A stretch of 64,000 nt of DNA from Sphingopyxis sp. QXT-31. Its GTDB lineage: Bacteria; Pseudomonadota; Alphaproteobacteria; Sphingomonadales; Sphingomonadaceae. The position numbers were made by a program, and so were the translations under genes. How positions within the stretch are numbered: the stretch's first letter is position 1; each line of letters begins with the position of its first letter. The notes under the pieces were generated by a model that was given only the letters and a program-made list of their open reading frames with translations, was not told the DNA's origin and searched no databases. The stretch lies in assembly GCF_001984035.1 (NCBI RefSeq), contig NZ_CP019449.1:62001-126000 (forward strand). Direction: 5' to 3'. Below are positions 25,362 to 32,575 of the stretch, piece by piece.

Positions 25362-26300
25362 ATGCGCGCATTCATCTTTCCGGGTCAGGGCAGCCAGTCG
25401 GTCGGCATGGGCAAGGCGCTCGCCGACGCGTCGCCGGCGGCGCGCGAGGTGTTCCAGGAGGTCGACGACGCGCTGGGGCAGAAGCTGTTCCAGCTGATGA
25501 CCGAAGGCCCCGAGGACCAGCTCACCCTAACCGAAAACGCCCAGCCCGCGATCATGGCCAACGCCATCGCGACCTTGCGCGTGCTGGAGAAAGAAGGCGG
25601 CGTCACCCTCGCGGCCAAGGCCGATTATGTCGCCGGGCACAGCCTCGGCGAATATAGCGCGCTCTGCGCCGCGGGGGCCTTCGACCTCGCGACCACCGCG
25701 CGGCTGCTCAAGACGCGCGGGCAGGCGATGCAGGCGGCGGTGCCCGTCGGCATCGGCGCGATGGCGGCGCTGCTCGGCGCCGATATCGACACCGCGCAGA
25801 AACTCGCCGATGCCGCCGCCGAGGGCGAGGTCTGCACCGTCGCCAACGACAACGACCCGTCGCAGGTCGTGATCTCGGGCCACAAAGGCGCGGTCGAGCG
25901 CGCGGTCGCTATGGTAAAGGACTATGGCATCAAGCGCGGCGTGCTGCTGCCCGTCTCGGCGCCCTTCCATTGCCCGCTGATGCAGCCCGCCGCCGACGCG
26001 ATGGCCGAGGCGCTCGGCGCCAACCCGCCCGCCGCGCCGCTCGTCCCGGTGGTCGCCAATGTCATCGCGAGCCCGGTGAGCGACGCCGACAGCATCCGCG
26101 ACCTGCTCGTGCAACAGATCACCGGCCGCGTCCGCTGGCGCGAGAGCGTCGGCGCGATGGAGGACATCGGCGTCGGACATTTCGTCGAATTCGGCGGCAA
26201 GGTGCTCGGCCCGATGGTCAAGCGTAGTGCGTCGGGCGAGGTCGAGGTGATCAGCGTGATTTCGATGGACGACATCGAGGCGCTGCTGAAGGCGCTTTAA
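25362..26300 (+). CDS. fabD: Malonyl-CoA:ACP transacylase
   Basis: A 312-residue enzyme moving malonate from CoA to acyl carrier protein for fatty acid synthesis. The nucleophile Ser94 sits in G-H-S-L-G-E-Y-S, the catalytic His203 in S-A-P-F-H-C-P-L-M, and the N-terminal F-P-G-Q-G-S-Q motif forms the oxyanion region. The gene starts with a good GGGGA site 10 bases before the ATG. The usual partner fabG is 2.8 kb downstream, separated by unrelated genes and repeats; the first repeat base follows the TAA stop directly. Confidence 0.97.
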   Translation: MRAFIFPGQGSQSVGMGKALADASPAAREVFQEVDDALGQKLFQLMTEGPEDQLTLTENAQPAIMANAIATLRVLEKEGGVTLAAKADYVAGHSLGEYSALCAAGAFDLATTARLLKTRGQAMQAAVPVGIGAMAALLGADIDTAQKLADAAAEGEVCTVANDNDPSQVVISGHKGAVERAVAMVKDYGIKRGVLLPVSAPFHCPLMQPAADAMAEALGANPPAAPLVPVVANVIASPVSDADSIRDLLVQQITGRVRWRESVGAMEDIGVGHFVEFGGKVLGPMVKRSASGEVEVISVISMDDIEALLKAL

Positions 26301-26472
26301 GGGATTCGCGCAGAGGCGCAGAGGGCGCAGAGAAATTTGTTCACGCGGAGACGCGGAGAAGAAAAGAGAATTGGCGGCTTTGCCGCCCTTAATCCTTTTC
26401 CTCTGCGATCTCTGCGCCTCTGCGCGAATCCCCTCTCTTTCTTCTTTCCTTCTCCGCGCCTCCGCGTGAACC
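26301..26472. repeat. Two interleaved inverted repeats (A-B-A'-B')
   Basis: Arm A (26301-26332, core CGCGCAGAGGCGCAGAG) pairs with A' (26401-26432) at 30 of 32 positions. Arm B (26339-26360, GTTCACGCGGAGACGCGGAG...) pairs with B' (26451-26472) at 21 of 22. The order A-B-A'-B' means both stems cannot form as one simple nested hairpin. A short GGCGGC-ttt-GCCGCC hairpin lies in the middle. The A family recurs around the GxxExxY gene and at 32357-32440. The gap contains no gene. Confidence 0.85.
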
Positions 26473-26578
26473 GATAATCGCAGCATCGCCGCGCGGTGCC
26501 AACGTTGAAGATAAAGCCCTTTTCTCTACTGAAGTAATGATGTATCATCGCCCATCGGTTCAAGCCAAGGGAGAGGCG

Positions 26579-28537
26579 ATGGACGGTTTCACACGCATTT
26601 GGGCTTTCGGCCAATGGGCCATCGTCGGCGCGCTGATCGTGTCGCCGTTGTGGTCGGGCGCAGTGGCGCCCGTGGCGCAGCAGATCGCCGCCGCGACGGG
26701 CGCTTCGGGTCGTATGCGCGCCTTTGCCAGCGAGGCCGAACTCAAGGCCTTCGTCGCCAAGCGCCAGTCGGTCCAGAACCTCGCCGTGGCTGAATCGACC
26801 ACCGCCTCCGCCGACGCGGCCTCCGCCCCCGCCGAGCCGCCCCCCGCGATGGCGGTCGCGCTCGAGGAGCCCGCGCCCGCTGCCGCCAGGGTCGATCCCG
26901 ACGGCATCACCAACGTCCAGACCGCCGGGGTCGATGAGGGTGGCATCGTCAAGAAGCAGGGCGATTTGCTCATCGTGCTGCGTCGCGGGCGGCTGTTCAC
27001 GATCGACGCGTCGGGCGGCGGTATGCGGCCGATCGCCGCGGTCGACGTCTTTCCCGGCAAGACTGGCGAGCCCGACGGCACCTGGTACGACGAGATGCTG
27101 GTCAGCGGCGATACCGTCGTCGTGCTCGGCTACAGCTATGCGCGCAGCGGCACCGAGGTGAACCGCTTCGACCTCTCCGCCGACGGCAAGCTGACGTGGC
27201 GCGACACCCATTATCTGCGCTCGGGCGATTATTATTCGTCGCGCAACTACGCCTCGCGGCTGATCGGCGACAAGTTGATCTTCTATGCGCCGCTGCCGAT
27301 CTGGGGCGAGATCGACGAGGCGATGCCCGCGCTCGCCGAGTGGCGGAAGGGCAAGGTCGGCGCCTTCAAGTCCTTCACCGGCGCGCGCGACATCTATATG
27401 CCGCAGCCGTCGTGGGGCGACCCCGACCTCGCGGGCGACATGCTGCACAGCGTGATGATCTGCGACCTCGGCGACGACGACATGGACTGCGATGCGACCA
27501 ATGTGCTCGGCACCTGGTCGCGCAGCTTCTACGTCTCGCAAAACGCGGTCTATGTCTGGGCCGGCCTCGGCACGAGCTACGACAGCGACAATCGCGCGAT
27601 GCTCTACCGCATCCCGCTCGACGGCGGCGCACCGCAGGCAGTCGAGGTCGCGGGCATGCCGCTCGACCAATTCTCTTTCCGCGAGGAAGGCGACGGCTCG
27701 CTCAACGTCCTGACGATGGCCGAGGGCGGCGGCGATGCGATGTGGGCGCCCGAGCGCGACGACGAGGGCGACATGGCGCTGCTTCACCTCGCCGCGAACC
27801 GCTTCGGCGACGGCGGCGAAAAGGTGAAACCCGCCGACTTCCGCGCGCTGCCCGGTGTCGAGGGCTGGGAGCGCCAGAGCCGCTTCATCGGCGACTGGCT
27901 GCTCTACGCCGGCGGCCGCGTCCGCCGCGACCTGCGCAAGGAGGGCAGCGAGCAGGCCGCGCTCTACGCCGTGCCCGTCAAGGGCGGCAAGGTCGTGCCG
28001 CTCGATCCGGGGCACCAGGTCGGGCGCATCGACATGATGGGCCGCGACGCGATCATCGTCGGCTCGGGCGACGGCGGCGCGCTGACCTTCACCACCGTCG
28101 CGCTCGACGGCGCCCCGCGGCTCGCCAGCCGCTACGCCTTCCCCGCGGCGGCCGAGGGCGAGAACCGCAGCCATGCCTTCTTCTATCGCCCCGATCCGGG
28201 CAGCGAAGGCGACGACGGGCTGCTCGGCCTGCCGGTGATGCGCGGCAGCGACGACGGCACCAGGTTCCTCGGCAGCGCCGCGTCGATCCTCTACCTCCGC
28301 CGCGCCGCACGCGACCTGTCGCTCGCGGGCACGCTCGACGCGCGCCCGGGCGAGCGCGACGACCATTGCCTCGCCTCGTGCGTCGACTGGTACGGCAACG
28401 CGCGCCCGGTGTTTTTTGGCAATCGCATCTTCGCACTGATGGGCTATGAGCTTGTCGAGGGCCGCTGGCAGGACGGGAAGGTACGCGAAAAGACGCGTAT
28501 CGACTTTACGCCGCGTGGGGGTGGCCGGTCGGGATAG
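26579..28537 (+). CDS. Secreted beta-propeller domain protein (PF09826 type)
   Basis: A 652-residue protein with an N-terminal hydrophobic segment (about 9-32: W-A-I-V-G-A-L-I-V-S) that could be a signal peptide or anchor. It then has an Ala/Pro-rich linker and a large beta-propeller. The stretch T-N-V-Q-T-A-G-V-D-E-G-G-I-V-K near 113-127 is the hallmark of this family, which is distantly related to WD40 and found in archaea and some bacteria. Function unknown; extracellular or periplasmic scaffolding is likely. The ATG at 26579 has GGGAGAGG before it; an upstream in-frame ATG (26537) lacks one. It separates fabD from fabG. Confidence 0.82.
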   Translation: MDGFTRIWAFGQWAIVGALIVSPLWSGAVAPVAQQIAAATGASGRMRAFASEAELKAFVAKRQSVQNLAVAESTTASADAASAPAEPPPAMAVALEEPAPAAARVDPDGITNVQTAGVDEGGIVKKQGDLLIVLRRGRLFTIDASGGGMRPIAAVDVFPGKTGEPDGTWYDEMLVSGDTVVVLGYSYARSGTEVNRFDLSADGKLTWRDTHYLRSGDYYSSRNYASRLIGDKLIFYAPLPIWGEIDEAMPALAEWRKGKVGAFKSFTGARDIYMPQPSWGDPDLAGDMLHSVMICDLGDDDMDCDATNVLGTWSRSFYVSQNAVYVWAGLGTSYDSDNRAMLYRIPLDGGAPQAVEVAGMPLDQFSFREEGDGSLNVLTMAEGGGDAMWAPERDDEGDMALLHLAANRFGDGGEKVKPADFRALPGVEGWERQSRFIGDWLLYAGGRVRRDLRKEGSEQAALYAVPVKGGKVVPLDPGHQVGRIDMMGRDAIIVGSGDGGALTFTTVALDGAPRLASRYAFPAAAEGENRSHAFFYRPDPGSEGDDGLLGLPVMRGSDDGTRFLGSAASILYLRRAARDLSLAGTLDARPGERDDHCLASCVDWYGNARPVFFGNRIFALMGYELVEGRWQDGKVREKTRIDFTPRGGGRSG

Positions 28538-29012
28538 AAGATTTGCGCGCAGAGGCGCAGAGGACGCAGAGAGTTGGCGGGGGATGGGCGAGGCGGCGCT
28601 CCATATCGACCAAGTTACGCACGAGGTGATCGGCGTCGCGATGCGCCTGCACAGCGAGATCGGGCCGGGGCTTCTGGAAAGCGTCTATGAAACGATCCTT
28701 GCCGGGCGCTTGGCCTCGATGGGCTACAAGGTCGATCGGCAACGTCCGATCGACGTCATTTTCGACGGGATTGAATTTCGCGAGGTCGCACGGGCCGATC
28801 TGGTGATCGACGACCGGCTGGTCGTCGAGGTCAAATCCACCGAAAATTTGCACCCCGTGCACGCGAAACAGGTTCTCACCTATCTCCGGTTGCTGCATAT
28901 GCCCGTCGGCCTGCTCATCAATTTCGGGGAGCCGACGTTGAAGCAGGGAATTCGCCGTCTCGTAAACGACCATAAAGACTCTGCGTCCTCTGCGTCTCTG
29001 CGCGAAAATCTT
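28538..29012. repeat. 34-bp inverted repeats around GxxExxY gene
   Basis: The left arm (28538-28571) starts at the base after the beta-propeller stop codon. The right arm (28979-29012) is its reverse complement at 32 of 34 positions, with the core CGCAGAGGACGCAGAG. The 407 bases between them are almost wholly the GxxExxY gene. The same repeat family occurs without the gene at 26301-26432 and 32357-32440. The layout looks like a small mobile or mobilisable unit carrying its own nuclease-like gene. Confidence 0.85.
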
Positions 29013-29054
29013 GATATACCGACGTCCGGATCGACCGGACCATTGCAAGGATAG
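28584..29054 (+). CDS. GxxExxY protein, PD-(D/E)XK nuclease-like
   Basis: A 156-residue protein with the name motif G29-L-L-E32-S-V-Y35. A PD-(D/E)XK-like active site follows: D72 (A-R-A-D-L-V-I-D), then E82-V-K84, with Q96 four turns later (A-K-Q-V-L-T-Y-L). The family is placed in the PD-(D/E)XK nuclease superfamily (PF13366), but its biological role is not known. The GTG/ATG-rich start region was resolved to the ATG at 28584, which has GGCGGGGG before it. The last 25 residues are encoded by and beyond the right repeat arm (D-S-A-S-S-A-S-L-R-E-N), so the repeat supplies part of the protein. It ends four bases before fabG. Confidence 0.85.
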   Translation: MGEAALHIDQVTHEVIGVAMRLHSEIGPGLLESVYETILAGRLASMGYKVDRQRPIDVIFDGIEFREVARADLVIDDRLVVEVKSTENLHPVHAKQVLTYLRLLHMPVGLLINFGEPTLKQGIRRLVNDHKDSASSASLRENLDIPTSGSTGPLQG

Positions 29055-29058
29055 ACTG

Positions 29059-29799
29059 ATGTTCGATCTCACCGGCATGACTGCCCTCGTTACCGGCGCC
29101 TCGGGCGGTATCGGCTCGGCCATCGCGCACGCGCTTGCCGCCCAAGGCGCGCGGCTCGCGGTTTCGGGTTCCAATGCTGACAAGCTGAGTGCGTTTCGCG
29201 ACAGCCTCGGCGGCGATCATGTCGCGCTGCCGTGCAACCTCGGCGATGGCGCCGAAGTCGACGCGCTCGTCCCTTCGGCGGTCGAGGCGCTCGGCAAGCT
29301 CGATATCCTCGTCAACAATGCCGGCGTGACGCGCGACAACCTCATCCTGCGGATGAAGGACGACGAATGGTCGGACGTCATCCGCATCAACCTCGAGGCC
29401 AATTTCCGCCTCGCGCGCGCCGCGGCGAAGCCGATGATGAAGGCGCGCTTCGGGCGCATTATCTCGATCACCAGCGTCGTCGGCGCCACCGGCAACCCCG
29501 GGCAGGCCAACTATGCCGCATCGAAGGCGGGGGTCACCGGCATGACCAAGTCGTTGGCGCAGGAACTGGCGAGCCGCGGCATCACCGTGAACTGCGTCGC
29601 GCCGGGTTTCATCGCCACCGCGATGACCGCCGACCTGCCCGACGCGCAGAAGGAGGCGCTCAACACGCGCATCCCCGCGGGCCGCATGGGCGAGGGCGAC
29701 GATATCGCCGCCGCCGTCGTCTACCTCGCCTCGAAGGAAGCGGGCTATGTCACCGGCCAGACGCTGCACGTGAACGGCGGCATGGCGATGCTATCGTAA
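29059..29799 (+). CDS. fabG: 3-oxoacyl-ACP reductase
   Basis: A 246-residue short-chain dehydrogenase reducing 3-ketoacyl-ACP with NADPH in fatty acid elongation. It has T-G-A-S-G-G-I-G (12-19), N-N-A-G (86-89) and the catalytic Ser139, Tyr152 and Lys156 (Y-A-A-S-K). Context (fabD upstream in the same direction) and the V-T-R-D-N-L motif after N-N-A-G support the ACP reductase over other SDRs. The ATG follows the GxxExxY stop by four bases and uses an AAGGA site inside that gene's end, so its expression may depend on the inserted gene. acpP is not next to it. Confidence 0.95.
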   Translation: MFDLTGMTALVTGASGGIGSAIAHALAAQGARLAVSGSNADKLSAFRDSLGGDHVALPCNLGDGAEVDALVPSAVEALGKLDILVNNAGVTRDNLILRMKDDEWSDVIRINLEANFRLARAAAKPMMKARFGRIISITSVVGATGNPGQANYAASKAGVTGMTKSLAQELASRGITVNCVAPGFIATAMTADLPDAQKEALNTRIPAGRMGEGDDIAAAVVYLASKEAGYVTGQTLHVNGGMAMLS

Positions 29800-29833: not shown

Positions 29834-29975
29834 TCCTCCCTGCGGCGAAGCCGTGGGGAGGGGGACCGCCGAAGGCGGTGGAGGGGCCGAGGCCTGAGAC
29901 CTCGGCCCAGGGCCGCTGCCCCTCCACCATGCTTCGCATGGCCCCCTCCCCATTGCTGCGCGACAGGGAGGATCA
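29834..29975. repeat. Large imperfect palindrome (type Q, copy 1)
   Basis: An inverted repeat with outer arms TCCTCCCTGCGGCGAAGC... and ...GCTGCGCGACAGGGAGGAT. Inner arms are GGGGAGGGGGACC-GCCGAAGGCGG-TGGAGGGG against CCCCTCCACC-ATGCTTCGCAT-GGCCCCCTCCCC, around a GGCCGAGGCCT/AGGCCTCGGCC-like centre. It is the same design as 56067-56203. It sits between the ends of the convergent fabG and ZnuD-like genes and may act as a transcriptional barrier. Nothing else is seen in this 266-base gap apart from the terminator at 30005-30036. Confidence 0.75.
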
Positions 29976-32356: not shown

Positions 32357-32440
32357 GATATTCGCGCAGAGGCGCAGAGGCCGCAGGGAGGAAAAGCCAT
32401 CCTCTCTGCGGCCTCTGCGCCTCTGCGCGAATTGAATATT
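32357..32440. repeat. Solo palindrome of the CGCAGAGG family
   Basis: Left arm 32358-32389 (ATATTCGCGCAGAGGCGCAG...) and right arm 32401-32434 are inverted repeats separated by about 11 bases. The sequence matches the arms around the GxxExxY gene and the A arms after fabD, but contains no gene. It lies in the 469-base gap between the ZnuD-like receptor and cysK, a gap that otherwise holds the Zur-like site and a second repeat. Confidence 0.85.
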
Positions 32441-32493: not shown

Positions 32494-32575
32494 CCCGTTC
32501 GTGTCGAGCGAAGTCGAGACACCCATGGGGAGCGCATGCCTTCGCGTGTCTCGACTTCGCTCGACACGAACGGAG
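32494..32575. repeat. Palindromic repeat, GTCGAGCGAAGTCGAG type (copy S2)
   Basis: Arms 32495-32523 and 32546-32573 are almost perfect inverted repeats (CCGTTCGTGTCGAGCGAAGT...), separated by a 22-base loop. It sits about 90 bases before cysK. See the related copies at 24387 and 59899. It could form a hairpin in either direction. Confidence 0.88.

Follow-up and report, generated by a model that had tools for sequence, protein, structure and literature searches.

The question raised by this locus is why a gene for a GxxExxY protein should lie between matched inverted repeats, here called arms, in the interval between fabD and fabG. The locus belongs to a stretch of 64,000 nucleotides (nt) from Sphingopyxis sp. 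QXT-31 (contig NZ_CP019449.1, positions 62,001 to 126,000), which was analysed as a whole and is referred to as the window. For the GxxExxY family, neither a described role nor a link to repeats was found in the literature, in a search that left preprints aside and reached few subscription papers. The answer developed here is that the gene and its arms probably belong together as a single cassette, part of a nuclease system associated with repeats that works like REPIN/RAYT with an unrelated enzyme. The parts of the cassette in the window are the following.

28584-29054, + strand: GxxExxY (TIGR04256 / PF13366) PD-(D/E)XK nuclease gene, an open reading frame (ORF) of 156 amino acids recognised by profile matches
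28538-28571, + strand: left inverted arm, AGAG type, directly 5' of the GxxExxY gene, 1 mismatch to the 18-nt arm grammar given below
28979-29012, − strand: right inverted arm, within the 3' end of the GxxExxY coding sequence, 0 mismatches to the 18-nt grammar

The two arms, 34 nt each with 407 nt in between, are complementary at 32 of 34 positions (94%), as the initial annotation of this DNA had described, whereas, when the 7-kb region was shuffled six times under an order-1 Markov model, the closest inverted match of 34 nt in each shuffle reached only 25-27 of 34.

Arms accompany GxxExxY genes in several phyla

Among 60 relatives, 18 genomes carry GxxExxY at a total of 30 loci, and a first look, made with no control, found an inverted pair near the gene at all 30 loci of the window's genus. 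By inspection, the arms consist of NNAGRCRC boxes in a row and are not palindromic; they follow the grammar TC-RCRC-NNAG-RCRC-NNAG, with boxes of ~8 nt in succession and letters that vary between pairs. Both arms lie within 2 mismatches of the 18-nt grammar in 39 of 40 Sphingomonadales loci, versus 0 of 200 chance windows, and in these 39 loci the left arm starts 91-117 nt (at one locus 132 nt) 5' of the conserved G codon, while the right arm ends 343-365 nt 3' of it. Arms of similar style are present in family f43 (which includes Mariprofundus, judging by names), built from ~9-nt units (ACCGCAGAGTACGCAGAGTT) or 10-nt units (GCCACAGATAAACGCAGATGAACACAGAT), and the arm of a Bacteroides finegoldii GxxExxY gene reads ACCACAGAGGACGCAGAGG.

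With windows placed from the conserved G29 codon and 2 of 90 loci set aside for short flanks, inverted arms above the 99th percentile of shifted control windows were found at 73 of the 88 tested loci (29/30, 10/10, 21/28, 8/11, 4/8, and 1/1 by group), and arm-flanked genes span Pseudomonadota, Bacteroidota, and Gemmatimonadota. The top score among 234 control pairs was 30, inside the own repeats of a Gemmatirosa record, and the next was 17, a value exceeded by 68 of the 88 loci. An earlier count, in which the tblastn ends bounded the windows (23/30, 9/10, 22/28, 8/11, 4/8, and 1/1), missed some arms because right arms can lie inside the coding sequence. The co-occurrence of arms and gene anticipated in the initial annotation therefore holds, and inverted arms around GxxExxY are the rule rather than an accident. 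An accidental position of the gene between copies of a common repeat could appeal to the abundance of the family in the window's single-contig, 4.29-Mb genome (G000), which has 57 arm matches versus 0 with the reversed control pattern; this account is refuted by the recurrence of arms at 73 of 88 genes in several lineages, at nearly fixed distances and with matched arms, and has next to no probability left.

One locus, L018, fails both the grammar test and the control-window test, yet an inverted pair was seen beside it in the first look; the failure is probably due to the fact that only part of its gene matched. By eye, the flanking repeats of L225 and L227 (Fusobacteria bacterium ZRK30 and Prevotella nigrescens plasmid records) are apparently direct rather than inverted. 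Also by eye, GFLEKVYENA replaces GLLESxYE in five f43 loci (L172, L174, L176, L185, and L189), and this subfamily pairs with CGCAGAT/CACAGAT/CGCGGAT boxes at ~10-nt spacing rather than with CGCAGAG boxes.

Gene-less arm pairs are commoner with the gene

Arm pairs that enclose no GxxExxY gene, here called solos, form hairpins of ~150 nt. When arm matches are counted minus two per gene, the window's genus has a median of 24 in the 18 genomes with the gene and 0.5 in 18 without it (P = 5.8e-6), and 24 genomes from other genera of the order have neither GxxExxY nor arms. In f43 the median is 18 in the 35 genomes with the gene and 0 in the 22 without it (P = 3.0e-6), a dependence that persists when labels are permuted only within genera (P = 7e-4). 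A dependence of the number of solo repeats on the gene, raised in the initial annotation, is thus seen in two clades.

The relative G032 has 129 arm matches, and 13 of its solos, 142-180 nt in length, are predicted to form long hairpins with hairpin-rich spacers, at raw folding energies of -73 to -100 kcal/mol. Best-aligned solo pairs from different places are 74-87% identical, and these alignments mostly end within ~12 nt of the element edges, that of L064/L065 extending ~30 nt more. The spacers of the solos are rich in hairpins and differ from the gene unit, from which the solos have not arisen by simple deletion; of the earlier description as a full unit plus empty derivatives, the RAYT-like pattern is supported and a derivation of solos by simple deletion is not. 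At the listed places, facing arms 400-460 nt apart coincide by inspection with GxxExxY genes. At L242 (G034:C11:888700-890600), in a genome with no GxxExxY detected, facing arms 1504 nt apart enclose an M20-peptidase-like ORF; these are perhaps the arms of two separate solos. Another M20 peptidase gene adjoins one GxxExxY site (L013). Four-helix-bundle genes (23S rRNA intervening sequence, PF05635), considered as other cargo of the arms, were found in 0 of 60 genomes, and 14 control genomes were equally silent.

The solos also tend to resemble the arms of the gene in the same genome. In 8 of the 18 gene-bearing genomes (four typed via a TTC-only pattern and four via a broader one; G012 with 18 solos typed, among the matches listed; G032 and G033, the latter with 2 solos, left out), solos differ from their own genome's gene arms by a mean of 1.81 mismatches in 18, compared with 3.09 after re-assignment. 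Only 2 of 40,320 re-assignments do as well, namely the observed one and its twin, which exists because two genomes share one arm. In G005 (a tie), G022, G027, and G030, none of the eight arm sets fits better than the genome's own; in G000, G004, and G012 the solos are closer to the four-arm set of G022, and in G029 they are slightly closer to the set of G030. The window's genome also holds solos of other types, with no corresponding genes.

Gene and arms co-vary

The left and right arms of one locus differ by a mean of 0.79 nt, whereas right arms shuffled among same-site loci give a mean of 2.48 nt and never fell as low as 0.79 in 20,000 shuffles. Arm distance tracks protein distance across 39 loci (Mantel r = 0.58), and at the fabD-fabG site the relation persists when host distance, measured on FabD, is controlled (partial Mantel r = 0.63, P = 1e-4, 16 loci). 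Both Mantel tests omit L018, and the one at fabD-fabG also omits L006, where a neighbouring second arm had been picked, and L008, which has no fabD in the locus. Two Sphingopyxis whose FabD proteins are 93% identical have GxxExxY proteins only 57% identical and different arms at this site, while a Sphingopyxis and a Sphingomonas with FabD 79% identical have GxxExxY 78% identical and the same arms. The arms follow GxxExxY rather than the host, and on the simplest reading a gene and its arms are swapped together. Overall, the dispersed hairpins vary in step with the gene and the arms, the three forming one system.

This co-variation bears on whether the arms could be ordinary miniature inverted-repeat transposable elements (MITEs) or repetitive extragenic palindromic (REP) elements whose mover is an unrelated transposase, GxxExxY being a passenger that happens to lie between two of them. 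Such a layout is known from RAYT-moved REPs (PMC2817692), and a Y1 transposase is found in 5 of the 18 gene-bearing genus genomes and 0 of 18 without the gene. Co-variation with arms is, however, not expected of a passenger gene. A Y1/RAYT transposase as mover was rejected: the window's genome, with its 57 arm matches, has no Y1 transposase (PF01797) match, and 13 of the 18 gene-bearing genomes have none either, in a search limited to Y1 among transposase families. A passenger gene is accordingly regarded as highly improbable.

The GxxExxY protein is a predicted PD-(D/E)XK nuclease

In profile searches the window protein matched only PD-(D/E)XK families, TIGR04256 (E = 1.3e-37, 128.8 bits against a curated cut-off of 35) and PF13366 PDDEXK_3 (E = 3.9e-37, 127.6 bits against a curated cut-off of 22). 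Alignment of 47 relatives bears out the D72...E82-V-K84 site noticed in the initial annotation, with D72 and E82 invariant and K84 present in at least 90%; E32 and Q96-xxx-Y100 are conserved as well, and the invariant or nearly invariant columns contain no cysteines. The QxxxY motif marks the Cas4/lambda-exonuclease/RecB-type group. The predicted structure has a predicted local distance difference test (pLDDT) score of 87.6, residues 132-142, which are coded by the right arm, forming its low-confidence tail. A fold search with this model gave SSO0001, a Cas4, as the best match, followed by MGME1, lambda exonuclease, and AdnAB, that is, mostly DNA nucleases. By family and core fold, the protein is a PD-(D/E)XK nuclease of predicted activity, and its modelled structure resembles the Cas4 and lambda-exonuclease folds.

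No PDB entry was matched by sequence, PADLOC gave only weak matches among known defence systems, to reverse transcriptase-associated PDDEXK and to Cas4, and no helicase or cas partner was present in the GxxExxY loci looked at. The family is very large (in one search, 7905 of the 7990 candidates scored were relatives with E values of 1e-3 or better), with 1-4 matches per gene-bearing genome of the window's genus. It was found in 8 of 72,556 plasmid records, at 1 locus in virus contigs, and in 0 of 50,697 phage records. Several public GxxExxY proteins bear the name iron complex or Fe3+ hydroxamate ABC transporter substrate-binding protein, apparently through misannotation.

The GxxExxY gene is under purifying selection, which would fit a useful gene and thus also a host regulatory or RNA-level system, in which the arms would be mRNA hairpins or binding sites trimmed or sensed by the protein and would owe their multiplication to ordinary recombination and gene conversion, not to the nuclease. 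The stable predicted folds of the 13 solos from the one genome and the position of the gene in operons point the same way. On the other hand, no Rfam family was matched in six loci and the window stretch, the fold matches are mostly DNA nucleases, and the presence or absence of whole ~150-nt units at unrelated places requires a dispersal mechanism. Taken together, a regulatory or RNA-level role appears quite unlikely.

Insertion sites and empty alleles

The cassette lies between two conserved genes, and only 4 nt separate the stop of the GxxExxY gene from the fabG start codon.

25362-26300, + strand: fabD, bordering the recurrently used site on its 5' side (context)
29059-29799, + strand: fabG, bordering the recurrently used site on its 3' side (context)

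In the genus, the 30 loci occupy six sites, of which five are shared and one is used by a single locus; fabD-fabG is among the five, and the others adjoin RNase R-type, M20 peptidase, thiamine pyrophosphate (TPP)-enzyme, and saccharopine dehydrogenase genes. Among 80 Sphingomonadales fabD loci, 11 have GxxExxY before fabG and one (L090) has a solo at that place; the order fabD-GxxExxY-fabG is also found in an 880-kb plasmid record of Sphingomonas parapaucimobilis. Empty sites, the possibility of which the initial annotation had raised, exist both for the gene and for solos. The gene is absent, with a gap of 27-29 nt, from 7 of the 8 loci L082-L089, the closest fabD-fabG junctions after strain HIX; a block of nearly 300 nt, comprising the solo before cysK and another inverted repeat, is missing in 7 of 7 relatives; and four further solos have alleles lacking them. 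Empty alleles are thus known for each of the five solo sites compared. In several relatives, the intergenic place that holds a solo elsewhere is taken by a different palindrome. A different insert of ~780-850 nt occupies 12 of the 80 fabD-fabG gaps (L091, L092, L093, L099, L101, L103, L104, L107, L112, L117, L138, and L159).

Sites are fixed in the genus, yet the arm and protein type swaps at one site. Such a pattern could arise from a homing-type cassette, in which the nuclease would cut fabD-fabG and other fixed sites when these are empty or of a different arm type, and host recombination via the conserved flanking genes would copy the cassette, the dispersed hairpins being by-products or a separate family bound by the same protein. 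The small number of shared sites is in keeping with homing, as are the occupation of fabD-fabG in Sphingopyxis, Sphingobium, Sphingomonas, and Novosphingobium with differing arm types, the position of 14 of 30 f43 loci between trpD and trpC, and the joint replacement of gene and arms. Homing leaves unexplained, however, both the dependence on the gene of solos at unrelated sites and their tendency to match its arms, and old vertical inheritance with frequent loss could equally yield fixed sites. Homing is thus considered an unlikely account.

A proposed repeat-associated nuclease system and its relation to known systems

In the reports on RAYTs and REPINs, an inverted copy of a dispersed repeat stands on either side of the gene, pairs of the repeat form hairpins, repeats are commoner with the gene, gene and repeats co-vary, and the genes are few per genome and rarely on plasmids (PMC2817692, PMC8049555). 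The GxxExxY system shares the inverted flanking copies, the hairpin pairs with diverse spacers, the excess of repeats with the gene, the co-variation, the low copy number per genome, and the rarity on plasmids. It differs in its enzyme, which is PD-(D/E)XK rather than HUH/Y1, the window's genome having no PF01797 match; in its arms, which are non-palindromic runs of 8-10-nt boxes, whereas REPs are palindromic with a GTAG/CGTC head; and in the location of the gene inside core-gene operons at fabD-fabG and trpD-trpC. The kind of evidence that defined RAYTs, including matched trees of gene and repeat, is found here for an unrelated nuclease. On the best reading, the nuclease would act on its arms and thereby spread the hairpins, while the gene cassette would stay in core operons and be swapped from time to time.

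Other known systems are less similar. Cas4, lambda-exonuclease, and RecB-type nucleases share the predicted fold and E32, D72, E82-x-K84, and Q96-xxx-Y100, but GxxExxY is a short single-domain protein without conserved cysteines and is tied to iterated flanking arms. MITEs and insertion sequences likewise have terminal inverted repeats and units with and without a gene; the GxxExxY unit, in contrast, lacks a DDE or Y1 transposase, and its solo spacer is not a deleted gene. Homing endonuclease genes recur, as GxxExxY does, at the same conserved site across genera with empty alleles, but they have neither gene-less copies scattered over many unrelated places nor matched inverted arms.

In the proposed mechanism of this repeat-associated nuclease system, the small Cas4/lambda-exonuclease-like nuclease would recognise the boxes and cut at the arms, probably when these extrude or turn single-stranded. 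Repair of the cuts would place copies of the short hairpins in other intergenic regions and, on rarer occasions, would move or replace the gene cassette within core-gene operons such as fabD-fabG and trpD-trpC, where the operon position would supply transcription of the GxxExxY gene. The transposon- or RAYT-like pattern put forward in the initial annotation is supported; its other part, mobilisation by the nuclease itself, which would cut the arms and spread the hairpins, we infer.

Several points weigh against this proposal. Cleavage and transposition are postulated steps, and PD-(D/E)XK nucleases are not known to join DNA ends alone. One control pair, with its score of 30, beats all but 11 of the 88 loci, and the arm test failed at 15 of 88, including loci of Fusobacteria, Persicobacter, Prevotella, and Treponema, several failing loci showing worn arms by eye. 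Within the genus, each protein clade keeps to one site, and the gene itself therefore moves rarely. Filled and empty alleles were compared at four solo sites, where neither a target-site duplication nor a precise junction could be read because the flanks have diverged to species level. Some genomes with no detected gene keep solos (in f43, 25 in G088, 17 in G191, and 13 in G306), which may be remnants (fossils) or reflect missed genes. Finally, type matching is imperfect: the own arm set is best in 4 of 8 genomes, the window's genome not among them, and in the latter only 19 of 56 solos lie within 1 mismatch of the arms of its gene.

A wider proposal is tentative, falling somewhat short of an even chance: GxxExxY may represent a second, RAYT-independent class of repeat-mobilising enzymes in several phyla, stand-alone and Cas4/lambda-exonuclease-like, that recognise iterated boxes and multiply hairpin DNA by a chemistry other than DDE or HUH, box sequence and box spacing (8 to 10 nt) being particular to each clade. 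The family gains a defined DNA partner in the arms, which can be read beside each gene. This tie would account for a class of dispersed repeats, would add an unrelated enzyme to the RAYT/REPIN story, and would make naturally matched nuclease-site pairs available for specificity studies.

Gene-less arm pairs and other repeats in the window

Inverted-repeat searches located the following gene-less arms in the window.

26301-26335, + strand: AGAG left arm of the gene-less composite 3' of fabD
26398-26432, − strand: AGAG right arm of the same composite
26339-26367, + strand: GGAG-type left arm, interleaved with the AGAG pair of the fabD composite
26443-26471, − strand: GGAG-type right arm of the fabD composite
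32360-32392, + strand: left arm of a short solo hairpin between a TonB-receptor gene and cysK
32400-32432, − strand: right arm of the same solo hairpin

Both gene-less copies reported earlier, after fabD and before cysK, are therefore present; the arms of the cysK-side hairpin are only 7 nt apart, and the copy after fabD is a composite with a second, interleaved arm family. Composites of AGAG and GGAG pairs, interleaved or overlapping in the order A, B, GGCGGC hairpin, A', B', recur as a dispersed unit, with copies at 26301-26471 in the window, in L075, L076, and L077, and at G000:C1 3291320-3291496 and 3295977-3296105. The composite is a dispersed unit in its own right, for which simple nesting is no explanation.

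In the window, the interval 26537-28537 directly 5' of the cassette holds a gene presumably of a beta-propeller type. Such a gene has this position in L002 and L008 too, while in L003 and L004 the cassette directly follows fabD; the gene has thus been gained or lost at that junction. Just 5' of cysK, at 32495-32573, lies a perfect 28-nt inverted repeat of another family (CCGTTCGTGTCGAGCGAAGTCGAGACAC), which is absent from the relatives aligned there. A further palindrome family is represented 3' of fabG by a 41-nt inverted repeat (29834-29972, 78% complementary), and a palindrome resembling it by eye sits at one solo site in the relative L213.
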